A stretch of 42,856 bases of DNA. Source: a virus. A program made the position numbers and the translations under genes. The notes under the pieces are model-generated. The model searched no databases. It had not been told where the DNA came from and saw only the letters and a list, made by a program, of their open reading frames with translations. Positions 11,815-36,657 of the stretch are shown piece by piece. Each line of letters begins with the position of its first letter. Position 1 is the stretch's first letter. The stretch is from positions 1-42,856 of IMG/VR virus record IMGVR_UViG_3300027734_000123; one strand, 5' to 3'.

Positions 11815-12003
11815 TCGCCAGACTCGTATACCTTTAACATGGTCTTCTATAACAACTTTGTGAACAAACTGAAACTCTAGTCGTTCACTTTCTTTTTGTA
11901 TAGCTTTGATAGCTGACTCAGTATCGATAGCAGGTATAAAGATAGACGAGCCTGGTAAAAACGTAGGCCAATCAATCTGATAATTTACGCCGTTAGTGAA
12001 CAC
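11809..12003 (-). CDS. Small conserved phage protein next to primase
   Basis: The open frame extends upstream to 12081, but the best start is a GTG at 12003 that overlaps the primase stop (GTGTTCACTAAC), giving 64 residues. The sequence has WPTFLPGSSIFIPAID followed by a helix and a strand pair ending in HVKGIRVWRL. This looks like a small alpha/beta domain I recall beside phage primases, though I cannot name it. It is the last gene of the leftward operon and its stop overlaps the converging virion gene by 6 bases. Function unknown; a DNA-binding or primase-accessory role is only inferred from position. Confidence 0.6.
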   Translation of the reverse strand: MFTNGVNYQIDWPTFLPGSSIFIPAIDTESAIKAIQKESERLEFQFVHKVVIEDHVKGIRVWRL

Positions 12004-14839
12004 TTCGTGGTATATCCAATGGTAAGTCGTTAGTCTTAAGTCCTTCAAAGCTAGAGTTATCGATCCATATGCATCGAACACCTGAGCCGCTAATATCTAA
12101 TCCTTTTTGTAGCACTTTAGAATCTCCTGATTTATACTTCAAAACATTATTATCTTTAAGTTTTTTAATAAAATCCTCGTAATCTACGTTACCAAGATCC
12201 TTTAAGTATGAGCGCATTATACCTACAGGAATGTATATTGTGTTAGTATCTGGTTCAATTCTTACACGTAATTCATTGATTGGCTTTAATAAAGGGGCTT
12301 CTTGCAACCCTGTTCGTGAATCTATGACACTATTAATAACTAAAGTGTTCTTTAAATTTTCATGTAAGAACGTAGTTAATGTTTCCATAGCATCGAAATC
12401 ACGAGCCTTAAGTTCTATTCTAGATTTATCTAACTCTAGTTTAATAGCATGTTTAACAGGTTCTAAGTTTATATTATGAATACCTAATTGCTTAGCAATC
12501 TGAGCGCCTAAAAATACTGCAGCTAATGTAGCAGAATACTTGCGGTCTTCTCCCGCTATGTTCCATGCCTTATCAATTTTTTCTTGAGTTTGTTTTAAAG
12601 CTATTTTTACAGATTCAAGATTAGATATAATCCATTGAGCATATATTTCCCCTGCATGTCCATAGTTATCAAACAGTCTACCAAAGTAATCATCAGCTTC
12701 TTTCTTTGTTAAGCTTGTATCTTTATCAATACGTAATTGTAAGAAGCGAGCCATCTCACCTGAAGCTTTGGCATTTGATGAAAACATAACTGTTCTAAAG
12801 TCTGTATTAGAAGATACAACACATATCAAATTAAAGACAGTATCATTTTGTCTTTCTTTATTTGTGCCACCACTACCCATACGATTTCTACCACGACCTG
12901 TTGACATGAACTTTAAAAACTCATGTAATTGATCAGGTGTTACTTTAGTAAATTCATCTACTGCCGCAGGTAAGTTATTCATGTAACCCATACGATTAAT
13001 TACTGAGTTACCTGTATCACCCCATACTTGAATAAGTTTAGCTGATAGTTCAGGATTACCATATACACTAGTCATAGCTTGTAATACAGTAGACTTACCT
13101 TGTCCTGATTCAGGATTGTATAAATTAATTACTGCTGATTTTTCTTTTGTTTTAAAGAAGGGCATGAGTAAAGAACCAAATGCACAGAAGAAACCAAACG
13201 CACGTAACTCCATACCAGGTCTTTCATAAACTGATATAGCTTTCTTCCATTCTTCATAGGTCCCTTTCTTTTGTAATGCTGGGTTAACATCATTTAAATC
13301 TTCAGATACAGGAACATACTTAATACCAAAAGCACTAATCTCACGATTACCTATAACAACTTTGTTATATAAAGCATTCCAACCATATTGTTTATACATA
13401 GGGGTTGATGGCTTTTGTTTTTGATCAGCATCTACTACAGCTATGATGTAATCAATAACGTTATCTAACTTCTTACCATTTCTAACAATACCTTTAGCTA
13501 CTAAAATCTTTCTAGCTTCATCACGAGATAGTAATTGTGTTAGAGGTGCTATGAATTCTTGAACACCTTCATGAGGTAAATGTAATTTAAACCATGCACA
13601 GAAACCTATAGCGTGATCATTTAATATTTCAACAAGATAAAAGTCATAGTCATACACCATGATAGCTTCTTCATCTTCATCAGCTACAGTTTTATATACA
13701 CCACCATTCTTTCCTCTGAAATATGGAAATGGATAGTCAGGTATTTGGTATGTGACAACTTTACCTAGTTCTTCTGACTTAGCTTGTATAACATTATCTG
13801 CACCTTTAGAACGTAGAATAACTCTACCTAATTCTATAGGAGATGTAATCTTACCTTTATGTTTACATCCGTCACAACCTTCAGGACGTAAGCCTTCAAA
13901 TTGTCTACATGTATGTGGACCTGGAATAGCACTAGCTTTAGCTTCTGTTCTAGCATAGTCATAATCAGGGTGATGTTTAGATATGTTGTGGATTGCTGAT
14001 TCAGAGTCTTCACAGTATGCTGCAATAGATAAACCTGATCTCCATAGTGGTTCTTCTACTGTTGCTTGTTTAGTCATGATATGAACTAATTGAGCGCAGC
14101 CATCATCTTTACGGCAGCGTTCAATAATCTTCATAAATTTAGATGAGTTGTTTCCTAGTATAGCTTTTGTAGCTTCATCTAGTGGACGTTTAGTTTTAGG
14201 TTTATCTGTTAAATGTATAGGGATAAGACTTGCTAGTTCATCAAAAGCAGTGGGTGTGCCAACATTAAGCACAATAACATCTTCAGGTTTAGCTACATCT
14301 TTATAATTCTTTGTGCCTGGAACTCGTAAAATACGAGCCATGTCAGCAGTGCAAGCACCGTCAGCTTTGAGTCCATGTTTAGCACACAGGAACTTTAAAC
14401 CTTCAGCAACAGGTTGCCATATAACTTTATCGACAGGTTCAGTAAAAGACCAATAACAATGGATACCTCTACCTGAGTCTACAATTGTAGGAGCAGGGAG
14501 TTGTGTAGTATCTGTAAAAGAACGTAACGCTACAAGTGCAGCATCTTTAGTTTCGTAGTCTTTCCATTTACGTTTCTTTGTATCAAACCCACAGTCTATA
14601 TCTAACCATAGAATACGTTGTTCTTTTGCATTTATTTTCTTTCGTTCAGTCGGCTCAACATAAGTTGAACATGCAAAGTAAACGTCTTGCTTATCGCTTA
14701 GTAATTTATTTACTACTTCAATTGCTTCATCTATGGAATTTATAAACTTGGGAACTACTACATTTTGTTGGTCTTTGCCTAGGACACAATAATATCCTTG
14801 ATCAGGCCATACTTGTTGTAAAAATTCTTTTGTTTGCAT
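11993..14839 (-). CDS. Primase-helicase (AEP-type primase plus DUF927-like P-loop domain)
   Basis: 948 residues. The N-terminal domain has the order of an archaeo-eukaryotic-type primase: WLDIDCG with D80 and D82, SGRGIHCYW with H127, then ADMARILRVPGTKN (about 165-178). A cysteine cluster (C311, C322, C325) may bind zinc. The C-terminal half has a P-loop ESGQGKST (577-584) and a Walker B-like AAVDEF (D628, E629), as in DUF927/superfamily 3-like helicases. The protein should make primers and unwind DNA at the fork. It is followed by a small gene with overlapping stop and start, and preceded by a 60-base leader with a hairpin. The ribosome site is weak (GAGAGA). Confidence 0.85.
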   Translation of the reverse strand: MQTKEFLQQVWPDQGYYCVLGKDQQNVVVPKFINSIDEAIEVVNKLLSDKQDVYFACSTYVEPTERKKINAKEQRILWLDIDCGFDTKKRKWKDYETKDAALVALRSFTDTTQLPAPTIVDSGRGIHCYWSFTEPVDKVIWQPVAEGLKFLCAKHGLKADGACTADMARILRVPGTKNYKDVAKPEDVIVLNVGTPTAFDELASLIPIHLTDKPKTKRPLDEATKAILGNNSSKFMKIIERCRKDDGCAQLVHIMTKQATVEEPLWRSGLSIAAYCEDSESAIHNISKHHPDYDYARTEAKASAIPGPHTCRQFEGLRPEGCDGCKHKGKITSPIELGRVILRSKGADNVIQAKSEELGKVVTYQIPDYPFPYFRGKNGGVYKTVADEDEEAIMVYDYDFYLVEILNDHAIGFCAWFKLHLPHEGVQEFIAPLTQLLSRDEARKILVAKGIVRNGKKLDNVIDYIIAVVDADQKQKPSTPMYKQYGWNALYNKVVIGNREISAFGIKYVPVSEDLNDVNPALQKKGTYEEWKKAISVYERPGMELRAFGFFCAFGSLLMPFFKTKEKSAVINLYNPESGQGKSTVLQAMTSVYGNPELSAKLIQVWGDTGNSVINRMGYMNNLPAAVDEFTKVTPDQLHEFLKFMSTGRGRNRMGSGGTNKERQNDTVFNLICVVSSNTDFRTVMFSSNAKASGEMARFLQLRIDKDTSLTKKEADDYFGRLFDNYGHAGEIYAQWIISNLESVKIALKQTQEKIDKAWNIAGEDRKYSATLAAVFLGAQIAKQLGIHNINLEPVKHAIKLELDKSRIELKARDFDAMETLTTFLHENLKNTLVINSVIDSRTGLQEAPLLKPINELRVRIEPDTNTIYIPVGIMRSYLKDLGNVDYEDFIKKLKDNNVLKYKSGDSKVLQKGLDISGSGVRCIWIDNSSFEGLKTNDLPLDIPRSVH

Positions 14840-14899: not shown

Positions 14900-15127
14900 T
14901 TACTTGTTAAGATTAACGATTAATTCCTTAATCTTTTGGTCAAGTTTTCTTGATGGCTTTGCTTTACCCGAAAACCAATCATACACCGTTTGCCTTGAAA
15001 CGTTAAGCGCTTTCGCTACTTGACTAGCAGGGTGTTTTAGTGATATGCAGACCGCACCTAAAAGTGTCCCTGTAGTTTCTTTAGCTTTAGCGTTTGCTTC
15101 GATTACTACTTGGGAGTAACCACGCAT
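14900..15127 (-). CDS. Small helix-turn-helix protein
   Basis: 75 residues from the ATG at 15127, two bases after the upstream stop. A longer TTG-started frame to 15139 exists but is less likely. A helix-turn-helix lies at about residues 35-58: ASQVAKALNVSRQTVYDWFSG, in the pattern of Cro/C1 or resolvase-type HTH. It is followed by a basic tail (KAKPSRKLDQKIKELIV). It is the only obvious small DNA-binding regulator in the window and sits between the ssDNA-binding-like gene and the primase. It is a reasonable candidate for the protein that recognises the palindromic operators at the leftward promoters, but this is inference. Confidence 0.72.
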   Translation of the reverse strand: MRGYSQVVIEANAKAKETTGTLLGAVCISLKHPASQVAKALNVSRQTVYDWFSGKAKPSRKLDQKIKELIVNLNK

Positions 15128-15129
15128 GA

Positions 15130-16047
15130 TTACGCCCAATCTGATACTAGATCATCTAAACTTACATCACCTTGGTCTGCTTTAGGTGCCGCTGGTTTAG
15201 GAGGAGGTGGTGGCACAGGTTTTTCTGCTGCACGAACTGTAGGTTCAGGAATATCATCTTCTACTTTAGGTGCGGCTACTTGTGGACGTTGAATAGGTTG
15301 TTGTTTCTTTGTTTCAAACTCTTCACCATCTTCTTTATTAATATTTACTGATAATGTAATAGCACGTTTAGCTTCTTCTGAAGTTGACTTCGTGGCACAT
15401 ACTGCATACTCGTCATCATTAAGAACACGAATAGCTTTAAAGCCAATCTTAGTGCTTGATGAATCTTCATCGAAACTTACACGTGATACAACCGACATTA
15501 AGTTTTGACCATTTGCACGAACATAATCTGTGTATTCATGTAGTGGTTTACAATCTTTTGTACCATTACCAAATATTGATTGTGCAGGTAAAGTCATTTG
15601 ATATACATCACCATTCAAATCATCAGCACGAACAACAGCAATACGTCTACTAAAACGACATGCTTTAGTTCCATTAGCGCCTGAACCTTTAATATTTTGT
15701 GGACATGATAAACAATTTTCTGCTTGCTTTTCTACAACTGCTTCATCAGGTTTTTGGCTATCAGATGTCCAACATGTTGGTGGTGGCATTTTTTCACCTG
15801 GTACATAAGCTTTAGAAAAATACATTCTATGTACATGTGGTGATGCATTAACAATAATTACTTCGAGAGCGTCTTGGTTAGACTTCTCAATCTCTTTACC
15901 ATTAACCATTAATCTAAACTTACCACCACGTATTGATATACGTTTAGCAGTTGATGTGCTTCCTGTAATGTTTGCGGTGAAGCCGTCATCTCTACGTGAA
16001 ACTGTTGATACTGCGGTATTTCCAAATACATCTAATTCTGTACTCAT
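15130..16047 (-). CDS. Putative single-stranded DNA-binding protein with zinc site
   Basis: 305 residues, overlapping the upstream gene by 4 bases (ATGA). The body is predicted beta-rich, and residues about 92-132 hold a cysteine set (CWTSD, CLSC, later KACRF) that could bind zinc, as T4 gp32 does. A proline-rich linker (PVPPPPPKPAAP, about 276-287) leads to an acidic, hydrophobic tip (DVSLDDLVSDWA) like the C-terminal tails of ssDNA-binding proteins that recruit polymerase and primase. The genes around it are primase, helicase and polymerase. No single-domain match can be confirmed by eye; the call rests on the tail, zinc site and context. Confidence 0.6.
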   Translation of the reverse strand: MSTELDVFGNTAVSTVSRRDDGFTANITGSTSTAKRISIRGGKFRLMVNGKEIEKSNQDALEVIIVNASPHVHRMYFSKAYVPGEKMPPPTCWTSDSQKPDEAVVEKQAENCLSCPQNIKGSGANGTKACRFSRRIAVVRADDLNGDVYQMTLPAQSIFGNGTKDCKPLHEYTDYVRANGQNLMSVVSRVSFDEDSSSTKIGFKAIRVLNDDEYAVCATKSTSEEAKRAITLSVNINKEDGEEFETKKQQPIQRPQVAAPKVEDDIPEPTVRAAEKPVPPPPPKPAAPKADQGDVSLDDLVSDWA

Positions 16048-18936: not shown

Positions 18937-19610
18937 TATTTTCCCCAATGTGAACATGATTGAACAGGGCAGAACTTCCTACATGCGAAGTTAGGGCTTG
19001 CATTGAAAACCCCTGTCTGATGGGCAGTATCTATCCTATGTGTTATTTTACCCCATTCAGCAAACATTTCGTCAACTTTGTCAATACTATAATCTTCCTT
19101 CAATATCTCTTTACTTACCAAAAATACCAATCCAGACTTGACTTTTAACATATCTGGGAAGTGTTTAAATATAGCTACACTAAACAAAGATAGCTGTCTA
19201 GTATCTGCATACTGACTTGACTTGCCTGTTTTATAGTCAATCAAGGTAGCTAACTTAGTTTCGGAGTTAATAACTAATAAGTCAACAACACCACGCCACC
19301 ATACATTCGATGCAAAGAAGTCACAAGGTTCAAGGTCTTTGGTTAAGCCTAACTTATACTCACAATACTTATCCCCTGGAATTGCGATTAACTTATCAAG
19401 GGTTGGCTGAAACATATTAAACTTCTCAGGTAACGGTTTAGCTTTACTTACATATAACTCGCAAGCTTTGTGAACTTCGTTGCCATAAAGAAAATGTTCT
19501 GTGTTCGGGTCTTGCTTAATATCTTTTGCTACATACAGATGATAGTATTGCTTAGGACATTTTTCAAATGTGGTAGCACTTGAATAAGACCACGTTTTAA
19601 ATTCAGCCAT
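18936..19610 (-). CDS. PD-(D/E)XK nuclease, Cas4/RecB-like
   Basis: 224 residues. The N-terminus has YSSATTFEKCPKQYY, the usual opening of the RecB/AddB/Cas4 nuclease family. H47 in YGNEVHKAC, D in WRGVVDLLV (about 112) and DYKTGKSS (about 131-138) give the H...D...D/E-x-K active site. The C-terminus has CRKFCPVQSC; with the cysteine near residue 18 this would make a four-cysteine iron-sulphur cluster as in Cas4. The enzyme probably trims DNA ends in replication or recombination. No CRISPR array or Cas1 is nearby. It is coupled to the HNH gene by TAATG. Confidence 0.82.
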   Translation of the reverse strand: MAEFKTWSYSSATTFEKCPKQYYHLYVAKDIKQDPNTEHFLYGNEVHKACELYVSKAKPLPEKFNMFQPTLDKLIAIPGDKYCEYKLGLTKDLEPCDFFASNVWWRGVVDLLVINSETKLATLIDYKTGKSSQYADTRQLSLFSVAIFKHFPDMLKVKSGLVFLVSKEILKEDYSIDKVDEMFAEWGKITHRIDTAHQTGVFNASPNFACRKFCPVQSCSHWGK

Positions 19611-19612
19611 TG

Positions 19613-19783
19613 TTAGTCTTCTTTCTTTTGGACTTCGCCTGTTGATTTATTAAGTTCATACTCTGCTAAGGGTTCTTTCTTTTTCTTACCAAAAATCAAA
19701 TCCCAATTCTTTTCAAACTGTTCATTGTTTGGTTTTGATTGTAACCAATCGCCTGTTACATCATTACGTGCAGTCTTCTTCAT
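19613..19783 (-). CDS. Small conserved phage protein
   Basis: 56 residues from the ATG at 19783, which overlaps the stop of the preceding oxygenase gene (TAATG); an ATG at 19795 is possible. It starts MKKTARNDVTGDWLQSK and continues NWDLIFGKKKKE. This 'RNDVTGD...NWDLIFG' pattern is one I recall in many unrelated phage genomes as a short protein of unknown function. It is charged, with no membrane segment. Its function is not known. Confidence 0.68.
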   Translation of the reverse strand: MKKTARNDVTGDWLQSKPNNEQFEKNWDLIFGKKKKEPLAEYELNKSTGEVQKKED

Positions 19784-20343
19784 TACCATACCCATGATAC
19801 GAAACTATCTCGTATCCCTTTCGTTACAGGATTAACTTTATGTGGATATAAAAAGTTAGACGGGAATATTAATACATCCCCTTGTTTTAATTTAATTTCC
19901 ATGTCGTCAAACATAATAAATTCCCCACCTTCATAATCGTCATTAAGAAAGCCTACGATAGATAATGTCGGTATGCCTTTCATTTTACCATCAAACATGT
20001 CATGAATATGATCACAATGTTTAGCCATAGTCTTGCCTTCTCTATACCGATTAAATCTTATATGGGTAAAGCCTTGCCACCCATTAAAGTATTCATTCTT
20101 AAAATCAGTAAGTATATATTGACTGATAGCTTCCCATACTTTTTGTGTAAGCTTATCACGTGTTGCTATGTTATCCCACGATACATCAAGTTCTTGATCG
20201 CCACTTTGAGTTACATACTTACCATCAGCATTATAAAAGACATGTTGTTTCCATGTAGCTTCATCTATTTCTTTTCTTACTTGATCGCACAATTCTTTAT
20301 CAAGCCAAGGATATACTTTGATATAGTCTGTAAGTTTATCCAT
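19783..20343 (-). CDS. 2-oxoglutarate/Fe(II) oxygenase, prolyl-4-hydroxylase type
   Basis: 186 residues. The metal and cosubstrate residues can be placed: H109-x-D111 in AKHCDHIHD, H168 in FLYPHKV, and R178 in TKGIRDS. Family strands such as LSIVGFLNDDYEGGEFIMF and the end RDSFVSWVW fit the phage and bacterial P4H-like group. Such enzymes hydroxylate a protein side chain, a nucleic acid or a small molecule using oxygen and 2-oxoglutarate; the substrate is unknown. It is the last of three consecutive oxygenase-like genes, each overlapping the next by about 8 bases. Confidence 0.85.
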   Translation of the reverse strand: MDKLTDYIKVYPWLDKELCDQVRKEIDEATWKQHVFYNADGKYVTQSGDQELDVSWDNIATRDKLTQKVWEAISQYILTDFKNEYFNGWQGFTHIRFNRYREGKTMAKHCDHIHDMFDGKMKGIPTLSIVGFLNDDYEGGEFIMFDDMEIKLKQGDVLIFPSNFLYPHKVNPVTKGIRDSFVSWVW

Positions 20344-24421: not shown

Positions 24422-24726
24422 TTAGGCATTTCCATAAACTTTTGCATAGCATTAAGTCTCTTGTTATGAAACTCTCTATTCTTTTGTTCAAACAATCTAA
24501 AGTCCATCTTAGTATTCATAAGAGCCTGTATATTCTGCATAGCTACTTTATATTCAAGATAAACTTCGTCTGTATCGTTCTCTGCAATCACATAGAATTG
24601 ACCATCTCTAATGCCAACGTTCTTAATATACTTACCTACATCTACAAGTTTAAGGATAGCCATCTTCTCCTTATCTTCTATTGATATGTCGGGTGAGTCT
24701 TCATGCATCGCATGATATACTTTCAT
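24418..24726 (-). CDS. Hypothetical protein
   Basis: 102 residues, overlapping both neighbours by 4 bases. It has a central beta-like part (VGIRDGQFYVIAEND) and a long C-terminal helix (QALMNTKMDFRLFEQKNREF) likely to form a coiled coil. It has no cysteines or membrane segment. It lies between DUF3150 and the VRR-NUC gene, within the same translationally coupled chain. Not recognised. Confidence 0.62.
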   Translation of the reverse strand: MKVYHAMHEDSPDISIEDKEKMAILKLVDVGKYIKNVGIRDGQFYVIAENDTDEVYLEYKVAMQNIQALMNTKMDFRLFEQKNREFHNKRLNAMQKFMEMPK

Positions 24727-25565
24727 ATGGTCTCCATAATTTGATTTACCTTGTTTAATACTGCTGTTCTAGCACCTTGACTTTCTCTCAAGTCATCGGC
24801 TGATACCCCTACTAGCAATCGTTCTAACTCTTGTCTAGCATTCTCTAGTTTAGGGTCGTTTGTTACATTAAGCCTAGTTAATAGATTTGTCAACTCTAAT
24901 GCATTATCTACTAGACTATCTCTAAATATTTTCTTTTCCTCACCACTTAATCTATCAACCATATGCTCTAAGGTATTGTGTAGCCTAGACCATGCATCAC
25001 TCATAGCAACTTCGACACGACCTTCATATGCTTTTTGATACTCTTGTTTCATCTCATTACGAATATCATCAGCGATGTCTACACGAAAGTCATTAGTTTC
25101 GGGAACAGGCATAATAGTATATTTGAGATTGAACTTATTTGCAATCTTATAAGCATCGGGATACTCATCTCTACTAAATAACTTACCTAGTTTAAATGCC
25201 ATACCTTGAATGATGTTAGGATACTCTTGTATAAATGTATTTACACGAGATTGAAACTCTGCCTCATACTCTCCAAGTTGTTGTTTATAATCAAAGAAGT
25301 TACTCATAGGTAATAACCTTGTGCCTGTGTCTGACCAAGGTAGCGTTTGCCTACCATGCCACTCTCGTATTTCACTAGACAGTTTGGTAATCTTATCTAA
25401 TTGGTCTGACCCTGCAAGGATATGTTTGTTATAGTTACCTGCCTTAATGGTTGTGTTTTTGTTTACATCAATCTCTTTGGACACATTCTTATCTAGTTTC
25501 CTAGCTGTCCATACTGATATGTTTAAGTCAATTAAGACTGCACTGCTCGCTATACTGATACTCAT
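24723..25565 (-). CDS. DUF3150 family protein
   Basis: 280 residues. The opening LIDLNISVWTARKLDKNVSKE, then GRQTLPWSDTGTRLLPMSNF (about 71-90) and a long helical C-terminal half match my memory of DUF3150 proteins in phages. Members commonly occur with a MoxR/CobS-like AAA ATPase and a CobT-like or VWA metallopeptidase-like protein, and both partners are here (27857 and 26585). The three may form a chaperone-like machine that remodels or inserts cofactors into a target. Actual target not known. It shares ATGA with a small zinc-ribbon gene upstream. Confidence 0.78.
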   Translation of the reverse strand: MSISIASSAVLIDLNISVWTARKLDKNVSKEIDVNKNTTIKAGNYNKHILAGSDQLDKITKLSSEIREWHGRQTLPWSDTGTRLLPMSNFFDYKQQLGEYEAEFQSRVNTFIQEYPNIIQGMAFKLGKLFSRDEYPDAYKIANKFNLKYTIMPVPETNDFRVDIADDIRNEMKQEYQKAYEGRVEVAMSDAWSRLHNTLEHMVDRLSGEEKKIFRDSLVDNALELTNLLTRLNVTNDPKLENARQELERLLVGVSADDLRESQGARTAVLNKVNQIMETI

Positions 25566-25729
25566 TTTATTTCCTCCTTAGTTTCGTCATATTCTTTTCC
25601 GTTTAGTAAATCTTCATAACTTAAATCTTGTTCATACGCATTGAGACATGCACCACATAGTTTGTCTTCCATTTTACCTCGTTCTTTTATGTAGTCCTCG
25701 TTCTCGCCACACCAATTACATGCACTCAT
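25562..25729 (-). CDS. Small zinc-ribbon protein (55 aa)
   Basis: It starts with ATGA overlapping the preceding stop and ends with ATGA into the DUF3150 gene. The translation begins MSACNWCGENEDYIKER and continues LCGACLNAYEQD, giving a CxxC...CxxC zinc ribbon in 55 residues. A strong site (GAGGAGGAAATAAA) precedes the start. It was too short for ordinary gene finding but is supported by the zinc motif and both overlaps. Probably a small accessory to the ATPase-VWA module. Confidence 0.7.
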   Translation of the reverse strand: MSACNWCGENEDYIKERGKMEDKLCGACLNAYEQDLSYEDLLNGKEYDETKEEIK

Positions 25730-25986
25730 TTTATTTCCTCCTCTACGTTGATAATTTTATGTAATGCAGGGTGATACAATAAATGCTTATATGTTTCTTC
25801 AAAATCTAAACGCTTGTATTTCCATTTCACTTTCCTATCTTTAAACCAATCTGTATCTACTAACTGCATCAATACATGATGCAAAGCCCAATAGTCCATA
25901 CGATATTCTTCACCATTATGGTCTCGAACCGATATTACTGTCCCCCATTTACAAGATAATAGTGATACGCTTTTAGGTTTAGCCAT
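25726..25986 (-). CDS. Hypothetical protein in ATPase-VWA module
   Basis: 86 residues with a good ribosome site (TAAGGAGTAAATC). It begins with a Lys-rich start, then a beta segment (LLSCKWGTVISVRDHNGEEY), aromatic residues (MDYWALHHVLM) and a Lys/Trp-rich region (KDRKVKWKYKRLDF). It lies between the 25997 gene and the small zinc-ribbon gene. No family recognised; the charged aromatic makeup would suit nucleic-acid or protein binding. Confidence 0.62.
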   Translation of the reverse strand: MAKPKSVSLLSCKWGTVISVRDHNGEEYRMDYWALHHVLMQLVDTDWFKDRKVKWKYKRLDFEETYKHLLYHPALHKIINVEEEIK

Positions 25987-25996
25987 GATTTACTCC

Positions 25997-26527
25997 TTAA
26001 TTATATGACAAGATTTCGTAAACTTTTACAGGCACTACACCTAGCGTTCTATTTTGTAACCCTGTTAAAAAGTCTTCTACTTCTTTGGGTAATTCTTGAT
26101 CTACTTTCATAGCTTTTTTAACGATCTTTTTGTAATCTTTTAATCTATACGACGACATACTTCCGTTAGGCTTTTGTTCTTCTGCCGCTTTAATTGTTTC
26201 ATCGAGCGCTTGCATAGTCCATGAGGCTTGTTCAGCATCTAATTTAAGCATTGACGCGGCTTCTTTTATGGTTGTAAAAAAAGAATGACCGTTGGGAATG
26301 TCTCTCCATCTAAACTCATAGCTATCATAAACAAAGTGGGGAAAATCATGCCCTTTCCTAATCCATCTAGCTAAGTGTGCAGTCATAGAGTTACCCCTAG
26401 AAATACACCCTGTTCTTAATTGCTTAACTACATTCTTAATCTGTCTATCTGTAAACTTATTAAAGTCAATGTTCATGACTATACTTTCTGCGTAGTTCGT
26501 TAGTTCATTTGAAATATTTAATGACAT
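25997..26527 (-). CDS. Hypothetical protein after leader hairpin
   Basis: 176 residues from the ATG at 26527; the site GAGGAGAAAAGAA precedes it, so the in-frame ATG at 26542 is less likely. Helical N-terminus (TDRQIKNVVKQLRTG), a central aromatic part (GHDFPHFVYDSYEFRWRD), and a Lys-rich helix (LKDYKKIVKKAMK). The 32-bp leader hairpin shared by five genes lies 21 bases upstream. It sits between the VWA gene and the small genes that lead to DUF3150. Not recognised. Confidence 0.62.
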   Translation of the reverse strand: MSLNISNELTNYAESIVMNIDFNKFTDRQIKNVVKQLRTGCISRGNSMTAHLARWIRKGHDFPHFVYDSYEFRWRDIPNGHSFFTTIKEAASMLKLDAEQASWTMQALDETIKAAEEQKPNGSMSSYRLKDYKKIVKKAMKVDQELPKEVEDFLTGLQNRTLGVVPVKVYEILSYN

Positions 26528-26548
26528 TTCTTTTCTCCTCATAAGTGA

Positions 26549-26580
26549 ACGACAAACGTATAATGTTATACGCTTGTCGC
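26549..26580 (-). promoter_or_regulatory. Leader hairpin copy 1 (32 bp)
   Basis: On the minus strand GCGACAA ... CGTATAA CA TTATACG ... TTGTCGT. It is 32 bases long with one internal mismatch, lies 21 bases before the start at 26527 and just after the stop of the VWA gene. It is one of five leaders of the same length and outer arms. Confidence 0.75.
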
Positions 26581-26584
26581 TTGG

Positions 26585-27742
26585 TTAGTCTTGTATATGT
26601 ATTGTCTTACCATGTGGTGATGTATTGTGACGTGATGTGACTGCCCATAGTGTAGGGTAATCCCAATTACCACCCCAATCATTCTCCACATAACCATCTG
26701 TTAATACAATGATAGCCTCGGGTTCGAGTCGTTTATCTTTGATATACTCATTGACGCATCCGACACGAGTGCCACCACCTCCTGCAGGTTTTGTTGTTTG
26801 AACCAAGGCATTGTAATCACCTTGATTGTATGTTTCATGTCCTGCAACATGAGAATCCCAATACAATAACTCTATACTTGATGGGGATACATCATCACAT
26901 ATAGCTACCACTTCGGTTAAGAATTCATTAAGTTCCTTGTTACCAATAGAACCTGATGTATCTATACCTACTACAACTTTACCTATTGATTCACCTATCA
27001 TGCTAGGCATGTAGATGTCTTGACCTAAGAATCTTTTGTGTGGTCGTTTCCATGAGGTCTTATCTTTGTTCTTACATGTAGCATTGACAAACTCACGCAA
27101 CTGTTCACGCCAATCTACCTTAGGTTCAAGTAACTCACTAATACTTCTATTCTTATTACCATTCATCTTGCCACGAATAATCTCACCTTGTCGCAAGGCT
27201 TGATCTATCTGCTTAACAGTCTCTTTAACTTCTTCATCAGACAAAGCCTCAGCACCTTCCCAATCATGGCTATCGTGACCTTCTTGACCACTACCTCCAT
27301 TCTGCTCGTTATCTTTCTTAAGCAGATCAAAGATTTGTTTGGTCGTCATGTTTTTATATTGTGGGTCAAACAATGCTGACTGTGGCTTGATAGCTACTTG
27401 TTGCGTACCATCAGCTTCATGTATCGCATTGTTCACAACAAAGTCAGCCGCCATGTTTGCAAGCATGGGATTTTCTTTCCATAGCTTTTTCCATAGGTGC
27501 ATATGTTGATACACTTTATGTAAGGCTTCATGTAGCACGACAAAGTTTAACTCCTTATCAGTCAATGACTTAATAAACTCGGGGTTATACATGACATCAC
27601 GACCATTGGTGCAAGCCGTAGGTATATCCTCTGTAAAGTTTACCTTGCCCACCGATAACACGCCTGCAAACATACAGAATTCCTTGCTACGCATTATCGC
27701 TATGTGGGACTTCGTTACTCTTTGTTCACTCGTTAGTGCCAT
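26585..27742 (-). CDS. VWA / metallopeptidase-like protein (DUF2201-type)
   Basis: 385 residues. The N-terminal half has a zinc-peptidase-like FVVLHEALHKVYQH (H71, E72, H75), as in the DUF2201 N-terminal domain. The C-terminal half is a von Willebrand A domain with metal-binding DTSGS (261-265), the TRVG region near 325, and LTDG (347-350). A charged linker (about 140-200) joins them. VWA proteins of this kind act with MoxR/CobS-type AAA ATPases, here the gene at 27857. AAGGAGAGACGAG precedes the start. The small gene upstream overlaps this one by 17 bases. Confidence 0.87.
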   Translation of the reverse strand: MALTSEQRVTKSHIAIMRSKEFCMFAGVLSVGKVNFTEDIPTACTNGRDVMYNPEFIKSLTDKELNFVVLHEALHKVYQHMHLWKKLWKENPMLANMAADFVVNNAIHEADGTQQVAIKPQSALFDPQYKNMTTKQIFDLLKKDNEQNGGSGQEGHDSHDWEGAEALSDEEVKETVKQIDQALRQGEIIRGKMNGNKNRSISELLEPKVDWREQLREFVNATCKNKDKTSWKRPHKRFLGQDIYMPSMIGESIGKVVVGIDTSGSIGNKELNEFLTEVVAICDDVSPSSIELLYWDSHVAGHETYNQGDYNALVQTTKPAGGGGTRVGCVNEYIKDKRLEPEAIIVLTDGYVENDWGGNWDYPTLWAVTSRHNTSPHGKTIHIQD

Positions 27743-27848
27743 CTCGTCTCTCCTTATAAAATTTATAAGTTACGCTATCATCTGACTCTTCTTGTCGCAA
27801 CCATAGGTATGGACATTGGTTCAGCCATTCTAAAAATTCATCAGTCAT
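27726..27848 (-). CDS. Short conserved ORF (40 aa)
   Basis: Preceded by a very strong ribosome site (CTAGGAGGATAT). The translation begins MTDEFLEWLNQCPYLWLRQ and ends ...YKERRDGTNE, overlapping the VWA gene by 17 bases. The 'FLEWLNQCP' start is a pattern I recall in other phage micro-proteins near replication genes. It lies between the ATPase and VWA genes and fills the gap. Function unknown. Confidence 0.65.
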   Translation of the reverse strand: MTDEFLEWLNQCPYLWLRQEESDDSVTYKFYKERRDGTNE

Positions 27849-27856
27849 ATATCCTC

Positions 27857-28903
27857 CTAGAAGTATTGGTTATTCTTAACTGCCCAATCAATGAATGTCT
27901 TATTGGTTGCGGCTACTTGCTTACGAGACGATGCCATGATGTTAACTGCAAACAATGCTTGTATCTCCATAGGTAGTCGTTGTAAATATGTAAGCCACGC
28001 GTCCATGTGTTGATCTGTAATCGTCATGAGTTCTCGCATGACTAAGATGACACGAGCCGCAGGGTCGCTTGGTAAGTTAGCTTTCTCAGGTTCTTTGTAT
28101 ATACTTTCCTTGGTCGGTAGACCATCAGCCAAACTAAAGTAAGCCGACATATCTCGTGCCGCTGACTCACCTAGTGTGCCTGTCAATGCAACCATCGTGG
28201 TATCTTCACCGAGTGTTACTCTGTTCTTAACGATATGCGATGCTTTCTCTAACGAACGAGGGGATACAAACGCCTCTTGTTGTTTCCTAGGATTGTATAT
28301 ATACATGTTCTCTTTCTGAGAGTCATCTGTATAACACGCTAGTGCATGGGGAAATTGTTTAACCCACGCTACAACTTCGGGTGCTAGGTTGTTATCGATA
28401 GCCCAATTAATCCACTCATCATCGTTTGGATTGCGAACGACAACTGCCGTCAATCTATTCTTGGCATGGGCTTTCATGGTATCACCTACACCATCTGTTG
28501 TTAGGTTGCCTGTTGAATACACGATGCTATCGGGGTGAAACTTCGTGGCACCTAGTCGTCTCTCTAACATGACGGGCAATAACATATTCTTAACGGGTTC
28601 ACTAGCCTTAGTGATCTCATCTAACATAATGATGACAGGCTTGTTGTCATGAATAGCAAAGCGTTCATTCGGATAGAATGTGGTTGTCTTTGTTTCATGG
28701 TTCATGGCAGGCATAGCTAAGTCACCTAAGTCTAAGTCTGCACAATCAATATACACAGGTGTGTGGTCGGGAAACCTAGCACTCAGTGATTTAAGTATTG
28801 ATGACTTACCAATCCCAGGTTGACCTTTGAGATGGACTGTGACATCACGACCTACTGTTGCAATTAATTCTTCTGCTTGTTTCAAACTGATTTCTTGTTG
28901 CAT
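27857..28903 (-). CDS. AAA+ ATPase, MoxR/CobS-like
   Basis: 348 residues. Walker A is GQPGIGKSS (27-35) and Walker B VIIMLDEITKA (D95, E96). A sensor-like STGN lies at about 128-131. The order of the arm segments and length fit MoxR/CobS-type AAA ATPases. These form hexamers that, with a VWA partner, remodel a target protein or insert metal ions. The partner VWA gene is immediately downstream. The leader contains hairpin copy 2 and AAGGAGAGAG before the ATG. Target in this phage is unknown. Confidence 0.88.
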   Translation of the reverse strand: MQQEISLKQAEELIATVGRDVTVHLKGQPGIGKSSILKSLSARFPDHTPVYIDCADLDLGDLAMPAMNHETKTTTFYPNERFAIHDNKPVIIMLDEITKASEPVKNMLLPVMLERRLGATKFHPDSIVYSTGNLTTDGVGDTMKAHAKNRLTAVVVRNPNDDEWINWAIDNNLAPEVVAWVKQFPHALACYTDDSQKENMYIYNPRKQQEAFVSPRSLEKASHIVKNRVTLGEDTTMVALTGTLGESAARDMSAYFSLADGLPTKESIYKEPEKANLPSDPAARVILVMRELMTITDQHMDAWLTYLQRLPMEIQALFAVNIMASSRKQVAATNKTFIDWAVKNNQYF

Positions 28904-29806: not shown

Positions 29807-29831
29807 GATAATTCTCCTCATTAAAATATAA

Positions 29832-29863
29832 ACGACAAGGGTATAAAGTTATACGATTGTCGC
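29832..29863 (-). promoter_or_regulatory. Leader hairpin copy 3 (32 bp)
   Basis: Arms ACGACAA / TTGTCGC and GTATAA / TTATAC with a 2-base loop AG. It lies 25 bases before the GTG at 29806 and about 30 bases downstream of the expected transcription start. Confidence 0.78.
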
Positions 29864-29900
29864 TTGGTTGATAAAGCACTACTCTTACTACTTAAATAAT

Positions 29901-29929
29901 AGTATAGCATACTTACTTGACATTGTCAA
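29901..29929 (-). promoter_or_regulatory. Strong sigma-70 promoter with palindromic operator
   Basis: Minus strand TTGACA (29929-29924), spacer of 17, TATACT (29906-29901). A perfect 15-bp palindrome CTTGACATTGTCAAG (29916-29930) covers the -35 box. This is a likely repressor or activator site. It drives the 29806 gene and the AAA-VWA module downstream. Confidence 0.8.
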
Positions 29930-29947
29930 GTCATTAGTCAAATTTTT

Positions 29948-33312: not shown

Positions 33313-33407
33313 TTTGAGTCCTCTCTATCAAACCAAATTAATAAAATGTAACCTGCCAATAGTCCTATACAGGCACCGATAATATACCAATCATAAATAC
33401 TAACCAT
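33309..33407 (-). CDS. Very short membrane ORF (32 aa)
   Basis: An ATG at 33407 overlaps the end of the first gene of this transcript. The translation is MVSIYDWYIIGACIGLL followed by AGYILLIWFDREDSK: a single membrane helix with a charged end. Its stop forms ATGA with the next gene. The short length lowers confidence, but it fills the chain exactly. Confidence 0.5.
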   Translation of the reverse strand: MVSIYDWYIIGACIGLLAGYILLIWFDREDSK

Positions 33408-33603
33408 TATTATTCTCCCATTTATTTTTATTACTAACTGCTCTCATTAGAAAGTCTGTTGCAACGCTAAAATCAACATTGAGGGTTTTGGCTTCATCTC
33501 TATCCCATTCATCGCTAATATAAAACTTGCCGTCAGACTCTTTAATATAACTATCAACTGCATGAGATACATAATTTATATCTCTGATTGATTGGCTGTT
33601 CAT
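33400..33603 (-). CDS. Hypothetical protein, first gene after promoter
   Basis: 67 residues, GAGGAGAAAATA before the ATG. It begins MNSQSIRDINYVSHAVDSY, then has a short aromatic/acidic stretch, KFYISDEWDRDEA, and a helix, ATDFLMRAVSNK. It is the first gene of the transcript from the 33691-33719 promoter and follows leader hairpin copy 4. Being first and strongly led, it is probably made early and in quantity. Function unknown. Confidence 0.65.
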   Translation of the reverse strand: MNSQSIRDINYVSHAVDSYIKESDGKFYISDEWDRDEAKTLNVDFSVATDFLMRAVSNKNKWENNNG

Positions 33604-33622
33604 TATTTTCTCCTCATAAAAA

Positions 33623-33654
33623 GCGACAAGGGTATAAAGTTATACGAATGTCGC
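33623..33654 (-). promoter_or_regulatory. Leader hairpin copy 4 (32 bp)
   Basis: Outer GCGACAA ... TGTCGC and inner GTATAA AG TTATAC. It lies 19 bases before the start at 33603 and 36 bases downstream of the -10 box. Same length and arms as copies 1, 2, 3 and 5. Confidence 0.78.
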
Positions 33655-33690
33655 ATGGTTAATACTGCTTATTTTTCTAGCAGTTTTATA

Positions 33691-33719
33691 AGTATAGCAT
33701 GGGTAACTTACATTGTCAA
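33691..33719 (-). promoter_or_regulatory. Strong sigma-70 promoter for small-gene operon
   Basis: Minus strand TTGACA (33719-33714), 17-base spacer, TATACT (33696-33691). The sequence from -35 to -10 closely matches the 29901-29929 promoter (TTGACAATGT ... ATGCTATACT). The palindrome over the -35 box is only partly kept here (CTTACATTGTCAAG). Confidence 0.8.
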
Positions 33720-33749
33720 GTCATTGTCCACCTTAAAAAGCACCTCTTT

Positions 33750-33969
33750 TATACCCACGAAGTTAACTAAATAGACCTAAAAACAGAGTAACCTTTTTGC
33801 GTTTAGGGAAATCCTCGCCGACTACTCACGAACGAATGGTCATTTTTTATTTTATTAGGGTTTGTCGCCTTGATATTGTCAAGTGTATTCTTGACATTGT
33901 CATGTAATTTTATTAAGTGCTTGATTTTATTGATTTTAGAGAGTGGACTTTGTTAACTTTGTGGGTATA
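33750..33969. repeat. 18-bp inverted repeat pair
   Basis: TATACCCACGAAGTTAAC at 33750-33767 and GTTAACTTTGTGGGTATA at 33952-33969 are inverted copies with one mismatch, 184 bases apart. The enclosed stretch carries two tandem operator-like palindromes. It may form a loop boundary or protein-binding pair. Confidence 0.7.
33869..33904. promoter_or_regulatory. Two tandem operator-like palindromes
   Basis: CTTGATATTGTCAAG (33869-33883) and CTTGACATTGTCATG (33890-33904) each match the 15-bp palindrome over the 29.9-kb promoter with one change. Their centres are 21 bp apart, two turns of DNA, as expected for cooperative dimers. Confidence 0.6.
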
Positions 33970-34469
33970 AAATTACACGATAAGTCTTTGATTATTAAGT
34001 AAAATTACAAGGGTATTTACTTTGTCAAGTATAAAATTACAAGCTAAGTCATTGATTATTCAGTAATAATACAAAATTACATCAAAAACGGCATTGCGCG
34101 AGGCTGGGGAACGAGCAGAGAAAAAATAAAAATCAGTCTAGCCACGAAGTTAAATAAGCTAAAACTAATTTTCCAGACGGGGATACAATTTTACGTGTAA
34201 TAATGTAATTTTATAAAAACTATATATAAATCAATGACTTGTATTTTTATGCTCTTTTTGCTAAGTGCTTGATTATATTATTTAATTACACTAGGCAGAC
34301 AATGTCAACTTTCCTAAGTCATTGATTATATTATTTTAATACACACTGTCCAGTCCTGTTGTAATTTTATAAGACAGTCGTGTAATTTTATAACACGCAT
34401 AAACATGTAGCCACGAAGTTAACTTAGTTAAACAATCCCTCACCCACCCACCTTTTCTATACGGTCATA

Positions 34470-34486
34470 ATTCGGTGGGTCCGAAT
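34470..34486. repeat. Short hairpin near end of repeat region
   Basis: ATTCGG (34470-34475), loop TGGGT, CCGAAT (34481-34486). It competes with a longer pairing of ACCCACC (34446-34452) and GGTGGGT (34474-34480). It lies just beyond the leftward terminator. Confidence 0.5.
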
Positions 34487-34508
34487 ATGTCGCCACGAAA
34501 TTGAGACG

Positions 34509-34540
34509 AAAAAAAAAGGGCTTGAAATTAATCAAGCCCT
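34509..34540 (-). terminator. Rho-independent terminator of the 34570 gene
   Basis: On the minus strand AGGGCTTGA, loop TTAATT, TCAAGCCCT followed directly by eight T. A 9-bp perfect stem with a T-run, 30 bases after the stop of the 34570 gene. It isolates that gene from the origin-like region. Confidence 0.9.
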
Positions 34541-34569
34541 TAACCCTTGTAAAAACTAAGTTAACTTAG

Positions 34570-35190
34570 TTAACTTTGTGATGATTTAAAATCATCTCTG
34601 ATTTTATTGATATTGCTATCAATATACATGGCAAAATCAAGTTCATTTTTTGCTAGATTTTCCATGCTAGTTTTAAAATCTTTTATAAAGTTTTTAGCGT
34701 CTTGCTTTTCTAACTTTTCGGCATTTTTGAGACGTTTTTCTTCACGCTTTGCTAACTCTACAATTTTCCCTTGCGCTTTCAGTTCAGCGTCAGTCATAGC
34801 GTCAATTTTTGCCCTTTGCTCTGATTTTTGCTCTGATTTTACATTAGGGCTTTTTGGTTTTGTCAATTCGTAAGATTTTTCTAGGCATGATGTAATATGC
34901 GTCCAGATATTCTTATCAAAACTCACTTCGTCCATGCCTGTAGCATCACAAACCCCTGCTTTGATAAGTCCATGAATATAGTTCCACGAAGTATAACTAG
35001 GGCTATCAGTCAACGCTAGGGCTACATTTTCAACCAATAACTTAACTAGGTTTCCTCTAGTTTCGTTATAAACATTGTCCATGCTTATAACTTCTAATTG
35101 ATAACCGATAGCGTTGTCAATGTATTCTGATTGAGCCGTTGATAATTCTACAGCATCAATTACAGCACTATTTAAAGTTTTCTTTTTCAT
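34570..35190 (-). CDS. Hypothetical protein, isolated gene beside origin-like region
   Basis: 206 residues; TGAGGATTAAACAAA gives the ribosome site. The N-terminal part (about 1-100) is mixed helical with ALTDSPSYTSWNYIHGLIKAG. The C-terminal half is Lys/Glu-rich and should form a long coiled coil (ELAKREEKRLKNAEKLEKQD, about 142-161). It has its own promoter (35286-35313), leader hairpin copy 5 and terminator (34509-34540), so it is made from a single-gene transcript. This layout next to the repeat region suggests a replication or transcription regulator, but no DNA-binding motif is visible. Not recognised. Confidence 0.65.
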   Translation of the reverse strand: MKKKTLNSAVIDAVELSTAQSEYIDNAIGYQLEVISMDNVYNETRGNLVKLLVENVALALTDSPSYTSWNYIHGLIKAGVCDATGMDEVSFDKNIWTHITSCLEKSYELTKPKSPNVKSEQKSEQRAKIDAMTDAELKAQGKIVELAKREEKRLKNAEKLEKQDAKNFIKDFKTSMENLAKNELDFAMYIDSNINKIRDDFKSSQS

Positions 35191-35220
35191 TTTGTTTAAT
35201 CCTCATGTTATTTAAAAAAA

Positions 35221-35252
35221 GCGACAAAGGTATTAATTAATTCGGTTGTCGC
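35221..35252 (-). promoter_or_regulatory. Leader hairpin copy 5 (32 bp)
   Basis: GCGACAA at 35221-35227 and TTGTCGC at 35246-35252, with an inner TTAATTAA palindrome in place of GTATAA/TTATAC. It lies 30 bases before the 34570 gene. Outer arms and total length match the other copies; the inner stem differs. Confidence 0.72.
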
Positions 35253-35313: not shown

Positions 35314-35460
35314 CTTTAATGACCTACCCGTACCCCATACCCCATTTTATATATAAGGTACACGCACGCACGTATACATTGGAATGGCCATAAACGATAT
35401 GATATTTGTATAAAATTGGAATAGCGGAACCCACCCCCTATCAAAAGAAAAAGGCAGTTT

Positions 35461-35483
35461 AAAAAAATTTTTATAAAAAATTT
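35461..35483 (-). terminator. Possible AT-only terminator after SprT-like gene
   Basis: Within a run of 33 pure A/T bases (35458-35490), AAATTTTT and AAAAATTT pair around a 3-base loop, followed on the minus strand by TTTT. It begins 12 bases after the stop at 35495. A weak stem, so low confidence; it could also be an easily melted DNA stretch. The rest of this 304-base gap holds the promoter and hairpin. Confidence 0.35.
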
Positions 35484-35494
35484 AAAAAAACGGG

Positions 35495-35866
35495 TTAGAT
35501 TGCTTTAGGATCGAAGTTGTATAACTCGGAGTAGACGTTTTTGATACGGAGGAATTTCTCACCATGTAAATGGAAGTCATCATCACCCCGAACATATAGG
35601 GCTAAATGCACCATCTCATGGAGAAGGGTCTGAAATATAGTTGTGAAGTGTCCACATGCATTAGAACTTATTTGAATTTCCATTTCATGCTCATCAAAAC
35701 AACCATAGATATCAGGATTCTTAATGACTTTGAACTTAACTTTGCATGACTTAGGCATAGGAAGGGTATTGAACGGCGCCATCTGACACGCCATGTTATA
35801 AAGGATCTCTAAATTCTTTTTTGTTAGAGTAGTTTTCAAAATGAAAAGAGAGTTACATAAAACCAT
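35495..35866 (-). CDS. SprT-like zinc metalloprotease
   Basis: 123 residues. The zinc-binding motif is in TLLHEMVHLALY (about 83-94), with a later HGEKFLRIK that may give the third ligand. The order of strands before it (CKVKFKVIKNPDIYGCFDEHEMEIQIS) fits a SprT/Spartan-type domain. Cellular relatives cut DNA-protein crosslinks; phage versions are common and their targets are largely unknown. No clear ribosome site precedes the ATG at 35866. The upstream 44-residue ORF overlaps by 31 bases, so translation may be coupled. An internal start near residue 14 is possible. Confidence 0.8.
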   Translation of the reverse strand: MVLCNSLFILKTTLTKKNLEILYNMACQMAPFNTLPMPKSCKVKFKVIKNPDIYGCFDEHEMEIQISSNACGHFTTIFQTLLHEMVHLALYVRGDDDFHLHGEKFLRIKNVYSELYNFDPKAI

Positions 35867-35970: not shown

Positions 35971-36072
35971 AGGTTCATTATACTAAAAATATGCTTGATT
36001 AATATAACAAATTCATATATATTGGCCGCAATAGCTGCAAATAAATTTCTAGGATGTAAACAGCGACATTTT

Positions 36073-36657
36073 ATGGCATTAAAAATCATACCAGACACTA
36101 ATAAACCCCTGCCCGATGACTTTGAGGCAGAAGAACCTACGACTTTAGATGGAAAAATTAAGGTTGTAACCGCAACTGCTAAGGTTTTAGTAGAAGGAGG
36201 CGCAGAAATCCCTGTTTCCTCACAAGAAAAGCAAGAAGCTGCAGATATATTCAAACAATACACAGATCCTGAAGGTAAAAACACATTAAATGCTTCGGTT
36301 AATAAAGCATTAGCTACTCCAGCTACAGTTCAGCATTTGTTTTTGATGTTATCGGACTATGATCATCAAGTTGTACAAGAAGCCGTCCAGTTGAGACGGT
36401 TTGTTACAAATAAACTGATAGAAGATGCAGGATTATCAGATCCAAGACACAGATTAAAAGCATTAGAGCTACTAGGTAAGATAAGTGATGTAGGTTTATT
36501 CTCAGAGAAAACAGAAATTACTGTTAAGAACTTAAGCCCAGAAGATTTGCAAACACAAATTAAAAATAAACTGTTTAAAATTCTTGGTAAGACAGCAGCT
36601 ATTGATACATCATTTGAAATTATCGATGCAATTAATGTAACAGAATCAAAAGAATAA
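36073..36657 (+). CDS. Terminase small subunit (putative)
   Basis: 194 residues from the ATG at 36073; a TTG-started frame to 35995 would add 26 hydrophobic residues that look out of place. The gene precedes the large terminase by one base. The N-terminal 50 residues are Pro/Asp-rich. The centre has EKQEAADIFKQYTDPEGK and a helical block, VVQEAVQLRRFVTNKLIED, followed by DPRHRLKALELLGKISDVGLF, a pattern I link to phage small terminases. It should recognise phage DNA and load the large subunit. The call rests on position and these motifs. Confidence 0.7.
   Translation: MALKIIPDTNKPLPDDFEAEEPTTLDGKIKVVTATAKVLVEGGAEIPVSSQEKQEAADIFKQYTDPEGKNTLNASVNKALATPATVQHLFLMLSDYDHQVVQEAVQLRRFVTNKLIEDAGLSDPRHRLKALELLGKISDVGLFSEKTEITVKNLSPEDLQTQIKNKLFKILGKTAAIDTSFEIIDAINVTESKE

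Follow-up and report, generated by a model that had tools for sequence, protein, structure and literature searches.

Results

A repeat-rich, gene-free gap in an uncultured phage genome

The window analysed here is the whole of IMG/VR virus record IMGVR_UViG_3300027734_000123 (42,856 bases), from an uncultured water phage. Its structural and terminase genes point rightward, and its replication genes leftward, from ~35.9 kb down to 12 kb. None of 50,697 named phage records is a near match to this DNA, and megablast of positions 20000-42856 together with blastn of the gap described below returned only short, weak matches to named phages and no near relative. An Rfam search of the window gave no match and a tRNA search of it found none.

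Between the minus-strand open reading frames 33400-33603 and 34570-35190 lies a gap of 966 bases (33604-34569) that is filled with repeats, is kept in relatives and is proposed here as the replication origin region. In a sliding scan of the whole record this was the most repeat-rich stretch; the second most repeat-rich, 7201-8300, lies within an 1834-aa gene. Repeated 12-mers of any kind numbered 37 in the gap, compared to a mean of 0.53 and a maximum of 5 in 500 shuffles. A sequence-only reading of this DNA had placed three repeat families here, and all three were present at the positions given. With at most one mismatch, the gap contains seven copies of family A (TATAAAATTACA; mean 0.07 and maximum 1 in 500 shuffles), three of family B (TAAGTCATTGATTAT; four at two mismatches, shuffle mean 0.008) and four of family C (CCACGAAGTTAAC; shuffle mean 0.000). 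The count of at least 15 copies in that reading holds when two mismatches are allowed (19 copies, 11+4+4) but not at one or fewer (14 copies). The 64-base step that it described is exact (33965/34029 and 33981/34045), as is the 53-base step (34262/34315), and its finding of no credible gene was borne out in that no open reading frame of at least 60 aa lies wholly inside 33604-34569, where the longest stop-free stretch is 56 codons.

Inspection of the sequence shows a sigma-70-like promoter (TTGACA-17-TATACT, minus strand, 33691-33719) for 33400-33603, the next gene leftward. TTGACA-like boxes had been suggested as promoters for RNA primers; the boxes are there, but such a role is not needed, and the best of them (33719-33714, minus strand, 17-base spacer, TATACT) resembles an ordinary promoter for 33400-33603. 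On the other side of the gap, gene 34570-35190 is swapped for unrelated genes in relatives that keep the gap. This gene was considered as an initiator beside its origin and rejected, given that relatives with GTTC-type repeats (see below) have unrelated genes in its place.

Leaders of several leftward genes contain a GCGACA...TGTCGC hairpin with similar flanks (33624-33653, 29812-29935, 26528-26587 and 35216-35252; 75-82% matches), possibly a shared 5' RNA element. Genes for a DUF3150-like protein, a DUF2201 metallopeptidase/VWA protein and a MoxR-like AAA ATPase form one leftward cluster (24723-28903), and the ATPase and metallopeptidase genes are neighbours in Rhizobium phage RHph_TM3_14A also.

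Cumulative GC skew, which had been proposed as a check, reaches its minimum at 35442, ~0.9 kb from the gap. This position is close to where transcription changes direction at the terminase genes, and in the large records the minima fall 1-4 kb from the cluster of sites, close to where the genes change strand. Because the minimum sits near this transcription divergence, skew does not discriminate and neither supports nor refutes an origin in the gap. The longest A/T-only run of the record, 33 bases at 35458-35490 between genes 34570-35190 and 35495-35866, is also near the skew minimum.

Family B repeats fit the consensus of a host DNA-bending protein

Family B copies fit YAANNNNTTGATW, the reverse of WATCAANNNNTTR, which we take to be the consensus of the host DNA-bending protein IHF. 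Seven matches to this consensus begin in the gap, at 33914, 33981, 34045, 34229 (inverted), 34262, 34315 and 34530. None of 2000 dinucleotide shuffles reached seven (mean 0.12), and outside the gap the genome averages 0.14 matches per 966 bases, but the copies in the gap are related by duplication, so that the shuffle figure overstates their independence and comparison between phages is the stronger test. Five of the sites are on the minus strand: TAAGTGCTTGATT at 33914-33926 and again at 34262-34274, TAAGTCTTTGATT at 33981-33993, and TAAGTCATTGATT at 34045-34057 and 34315-34327, 64 and 53 bases, respectively, from the site before. The inverted site, AATCAATGACTTG, is on the plus strand at 34229-34241. 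The match at 34530 falls in a terminator-like hairpin of gene 34570-35190 (34510-34545, minus strand), read from the sequence, and is probably incidental.

The first loci supplied 95 copies, in which both positions left free vary, and the G and T of positions 4-5 are retained in 89 and 93 of them; the pattern used to collect these copies, TAA[GC][TC]NNTTGATT, already fixes nine other positions. At 111 of 155 distinct sites the DNA following TTGATT has more A and T than the DNA preceding it, with the reverse at 25, and AT content is 0.80 on the WATCAA side compared to 0.66 on the other. IHF sites such as lambda H' have their AT-rich flank on that side too. Judged by consensus, the family B copies are candidate IHF sites rather than iterons.

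GT at positions 4-5 is nearly fixed, tighter than this consensus demands, and the TTGTTT forms found in one relative (G006) and in Pseudomonas phage KPP25 fall outside it. Both observations would suit another conserved protein, of host or phage, as the binder of the 13-mer, with the rest of the origin model the same. The remaining fixed positions coincide with the IHF consensus, however, and the AT-rich flank is on the IHF side; we therefore consider a binder other than IHF unlikely.

Iteron pairs converge around a spacer next to the most AT-rich DNA of the genome

The proposed core occupies 197 bases (34045-34241) and consists, in order, of an IHF site, an iteron pair, a spacer, an inverted iteron pair, an AT stretch and an inverted IHF site. 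The direct pair, AATACA/ATTACA with an 8-base step (34068/34076; plus strand, 34068-34081), starts 10 bases after the IHF 13-mer. The inverted pair, TGTAAT..TGTAAT, also with an 8-base step (34196/34204; minus strand, 34196-34209), was recognized from sequence and alignment. A spacer motif, GGCATTGCGCG (plus strand, 34085-34105), was found by alignment and corresponds to CA[CT]TGC in relatives, whose sequences were compared by eye. Repeat searching placed further family A iterons at 33966-33977 and 34030-34041 (TATAAAATTACA, plus strand), at 33903-33914 (minus strand, one mismatch) and, as two inverted copies (34360-34371 and 34381-34392), at 34360-34392 on the minus strand. Tandem short repeats at about helical steps thus occupy a noncoding stretch, as in iteron-type origins. 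Such origins also have an AT-rich unwinding element beside the repeats, and the most AT-rich 100 bases of the genome (AT 0.82, a maximum reached by the stretches starting at 34187 and 34189) fall where the core layout predicts a melting element; we propose 34187-34289 as this element.

Family C copies lie at 33755-33767, 34142-34154 and 34411-34423 (plus strand) and, inverted, at 33952-33964 (minus strand), as located by repeat search. The family C word AACTTYGTGG occurs six more times outside the gap (7593, 17337, 28539, 30539, 32362 and 32534; 0.09 expected), always on the plus strand whatever the direction of the gene. It occurs five times on the plus strand and never on the minus strand of another genome, G020, and was absent from the GTTC-type genomes G001-G004, G007 and G008. 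It looks like a polarised, genome-wide word.

This scatter of family C, the good promoter at 33719-33691 and a 79-aa HTH protein at 14900-15139 could all be accommodated if the gap were an array of operators, bound by a repressor or activator of the phage, in which IHF shapes the promoters of the early operon that runs leftward. Most of the array, however, lies 200-600 bases upstream of the promoter and is kept in relatives where neighbouring genes are swapped, and transcription control leaves the converging iteron arrays and the AT element unexplained. We regard this explanation as very improbable.

Relatives keep the IHF-type word and the layout while the iterons drift

Of the 80 loci from a terminase search, seven have DNA that aligns with the gap, L050 among them with just a short stretch; L059, with 46 bases, was left out of the count. 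Gap DNA also aligns in L087-L089, which were found via the neighbouring gene. The gap alignment comprised nine sequences. Steps of 64 and 52-53 bases recur in the relatives, and GTT-word repeats there are mostly 8-9 or 11-12 bases apart. Distant loci keep the 13-mer and little else, and the sequence after the 13-mer differs by phage. In 23 loci the terminase gene is preceded by 4.5 kb or more of sequence. Of these, 21 (all except L052 and L073) have a cluster of at least two relaxed sites within 800 bases in this upstream DNA; the strict word gives such a cluster in 12, and the reversed strict word in none. Across 40 viral records the strict word was found 86 times (35 + 51), compared to six (1 + 5) for the reversed control.

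A phage-specific repeat begins 10 bases after the 13-mer. It is ATTACA-like at 50 of 155 distinct sites (the group of the window) and GTTC-like at 17 of 155. TAAGTNNTTGATT is fixed while the short repeats 10 bases away vary among phages (ATTACA, GTTACA, GTTCCA). G006, with GTTACA and sites of the form TAAGTNNTTGTTT, is intermediate between the A and GTTC forms, and words within the A group vary too (AATTACA, ATAACA, AATTACG, TTTTACA, AATATTACA). These sequence comparisons suggest one protein partner for the constant word and a different one for the drifting word.

The order of elements is also kept. Six GTTC-type relatives (G001, G002, G003, G004, G007 and G008) and L068, compared by eye, have an IHF-type site, a long A/T run, an iteron pair, a CACTGC-like spacer, an inverted iteron pair, an inverted IHF site and then more iterons, with the first IHF-type copy degenerate in some of them. 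On the opposite strand this corresponds to the arrangement of the window between 34045 and 34241. In seven of seven GTTC-type records with a cluster (G001-G004, G007, G008 and G011) the cluster contains the longest A/T-only run of the whole record, as does the equivalent gap in G006; in all four A-type records (the window, G005, G009 and G010) that run is elsewhere. Several relatives contain (TAA)n triplet runs, which recall DnaA-trios.

Proximity to the terminase genes raises an alternative, that the gap is a cosB- or pac-like recognition site for DNA packaging, where TerS would bind the phage-specific repeats and IHF would bend the DNA. A distance of 2.1 kb separates the gap from the gene for the terminase large subunit, and in relatives the clusters lie upstream of that gene. 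Iteron type covaries with the TerS-like protein at 35995-36657, and equally with the Rep protein described below; the TerS-like protein of the window has 63-73% identity to those of A-type G005 and G009 and 21-27% to others. In lambda cosB, too, an IHF site occurs together with phage-specific R sites near the terminase genes. It is much smaller, though, and lacks an AT element and converging arrays, unlike the two converging arrays over ~200 bases seen here. Nor is a long A/T run next to the site a feature of packaging, and in different relatives unrelated genes stand between gap and terminase, at distances of ~1.5 to 6.6 kb. A packaging site is therefore improbable in our view, and an origin remains the reading that we prefer.

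A SaPI/SCCmec-type primase-helicase is the candidate initiator

As the iteron-binding initiator we propose Rep, a 948-aa primase-helicase encoded on the minus strand at 11993-14839. Its N-terminus is primase-like (phrog_10514, phrog_2478), and it contains DUF927. The protein matches the NCBIfam model of the SCCmec Cch helicase (E 6e-15; 54.7 bits, below the curated cut-off of 700) and, by sequence, 5dgk (E 3e-9). A structure model of residues 420-948 (mean pLDDT 77, pTM 0.65) was most similar in fold to 5dgk (Z 29.0 over 398 residues) and to 8tch, the SaPIbov1 Rep (Z 26.0 over 411), followed at a wide margin by an MCM at Z 11.8, the best of the MCMs, and the match to 5dgk and 8tch extends into the C-terminal domain. 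DUF927 Cch is related to SaPIbov1 Rep, and SaPI Rep recognises its iteron origin via the C-terminal domain, as described in PMC7581432. The phage thus has the Rep/Cch helicase homologue of a SaPI/SCCmec DUF927 replicon.

Between G023 and G027 the C-terminal end of Rep shows extra divergence, a weak signal as this end is variable in general. In G020 and G025, which have a close Rep and were considered for iteron-Rep pairing, neither terminase nor origin was found.

Converging sites occur across IMG/VR, and similar gaps in some named phages

Scanning IMG/VR for the converging pair TAAGTNNTTGATT-N185-212-AATCAANNACTTA returned 94 stretches, compared to eight for the reversed control, seven of which have one shared spacing. 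Among the 80 scan loci listed, terminase was matched at 70% or more in 22, at 50-60% in 14 and below 40% in four, with none in the flank covered in 40. The spacers of these 80 listed loci fall into 44 mutually unalignable groups. GC content across the loci spans 0.26-0.61, and an A/T run of at least 18 bases lies beside the site in 40 of the 80 (1.4 expected). Megablast of one high-GC locus, L281, found no match among named phages. A scan for tandem sites gave more than 120 stretches with a spread of spacings; having no control, it was kept out of the evidence.

Seven named phages were covered in part (the first 30 kb of L090 and L091, the first 50 kb of L434-L438). In the 50 kb covered of Rhizobium phage RHph_TM3_14A there are two IHF-consensus sites, and they share a single 770-base gap with the longest A/T run of that phage. 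One gap of Pseudomonas phage Rollin brings together its one strict site, its longest A/T run (19 bases) and TTTGCATAC repeats. In Pseudomonas phage KPP25 the longest A/T run shares a gap with TAAGTGGTTGTTT and with repeats of GTTACGA. The candidate origins in these three phages are RHph_TM3_14A 19355-20125, KPP25 26218-26895 and, in Rollin, ~300-600. Rep-like DUF927 proteins are encoded by Rollin (26.6% over 907 columns) and RHph_TM3_14A (24.4% over 909), and KPP25 has a DUF5906 protein instead. The cluster was absent from the covered parts of the other four of the seven (HTVC023P, HTVC027P, 023Pt_psg01 and DSL-LC04).

DSL-LC04 has a single IHF-consensus site in its first 30 kb, which lies in a 644-base gap (L090:20474-21118) together with inverted repeats. 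The DUF927 Rep homologue of RHph_TM3_14A (L434:42239-45322) is annotated as a putative integrase. A terminase search of genome contigs gave two MAG contigs, binned as Rhodocyclaceae and Geobacteraceae, which is no more than a hint of the host; the hosts are presumably Gram-negative.

Discussion

The gap at 33604-34569 is likely the replication origin of this phage, opened by Rep together with host IHF, as read from sequence and predicted structure. An iteron-type origin had been suggested from the repeats, and it is now the best-supported reading, made stronger because the relatives, the AT-rich element and a SaPI/SCCmec-type Rep agree; one part of that suggestion that does not stand is family B, which fits the IHF consensus and not an iteron. 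We infer that host IHF would bind the TAAGTNNTTGATT sites and bend the DNA, and that Rep, with its N-terminal primase-like part, MCM-like DUF927 helicase and C-terminal DNA-binding domain (residues ~815-948), would bind the short repeats one helical turn from the IHF sites. Its targets, ATTACA in the window and paired 8 bases apart, would form two converging arrays ~115 bases apart, perhaps for two hexamers. Bending and Rep assembly would then melt the AT-rich 34187-34289, and Rep could load on the single strands, unwind and prime, with the phage PolA extending.

A broader proposal, to which we give slightly less than an even chance, is that one architecture, two converging pairs of drifting iterons clamped by invariant IHF-type TAAGTNNTTGATT around an AT element, serves a wide range of tailed phages whose initiator helicases differ: DUF927 in the clade of the window, Rollin and RHph_TM3_14A, and DUF5906 in KPP25. 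The host-facing word would be frozen and the phage-facing word free to evolve, making origins readable from metagenomic contigs. Few replication origins are known for uncultured phages, and searches of open-access papers listed no description of this origin type. If the proposal is true, a 13-base word and its spacing mark the origin in a large phage group of 26-61% GC, and the word shows which initiator pairs with which repeats. It would also tie lytic phage replication to host IHF and link it to the self-loading helicases of staphylococcal islands. The named Pseudomonas and Rhizobium isolates make this reading testable in the laboratory.

The phage P4 ori, with its alpha primase-helicase, resembles the proposed origin in having short iterons and an initiator that fuses primase and helicase. 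On the other strand, iterons of the GTTC type read TGAACA, which we take to resemble the P4 type I iterons. P4 differs in helicase family, in the IHF array and in spacing. SaPIbov1 Rep and SCCmec Cch replicons are similar in having short iterons and a Rep with a DUF927 helicase and a C-terminal domain of the same fold. They differ from the window, where the N-terminal primase-like part is fused, IHF sites stand at a fixed distance and the host is presumably Gram-negative. SaPI origins sit just downstream of rep, according to PMC7581432, whereas here the gap (33.6-34.6 kb) and rep (12-14.8 kb) are ~19 kb apart; because the origin is not beside rep, we do not class the gap as a SaPI-type replicon. 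The pSC101 and R6K gamma origins share iterons, an AT-rich element, IHF and an own initiator with the gap, and IHF and initiator together open the pSC101 and R6K origins, as set out in PMC5043065. The window differs from them in having six or more IHF sites, converging iteron pairs and an initiator that is itself a helicase. Taken together, these comparisons suggest that the gap most likely works like SaPI and plasmid iteron origins.
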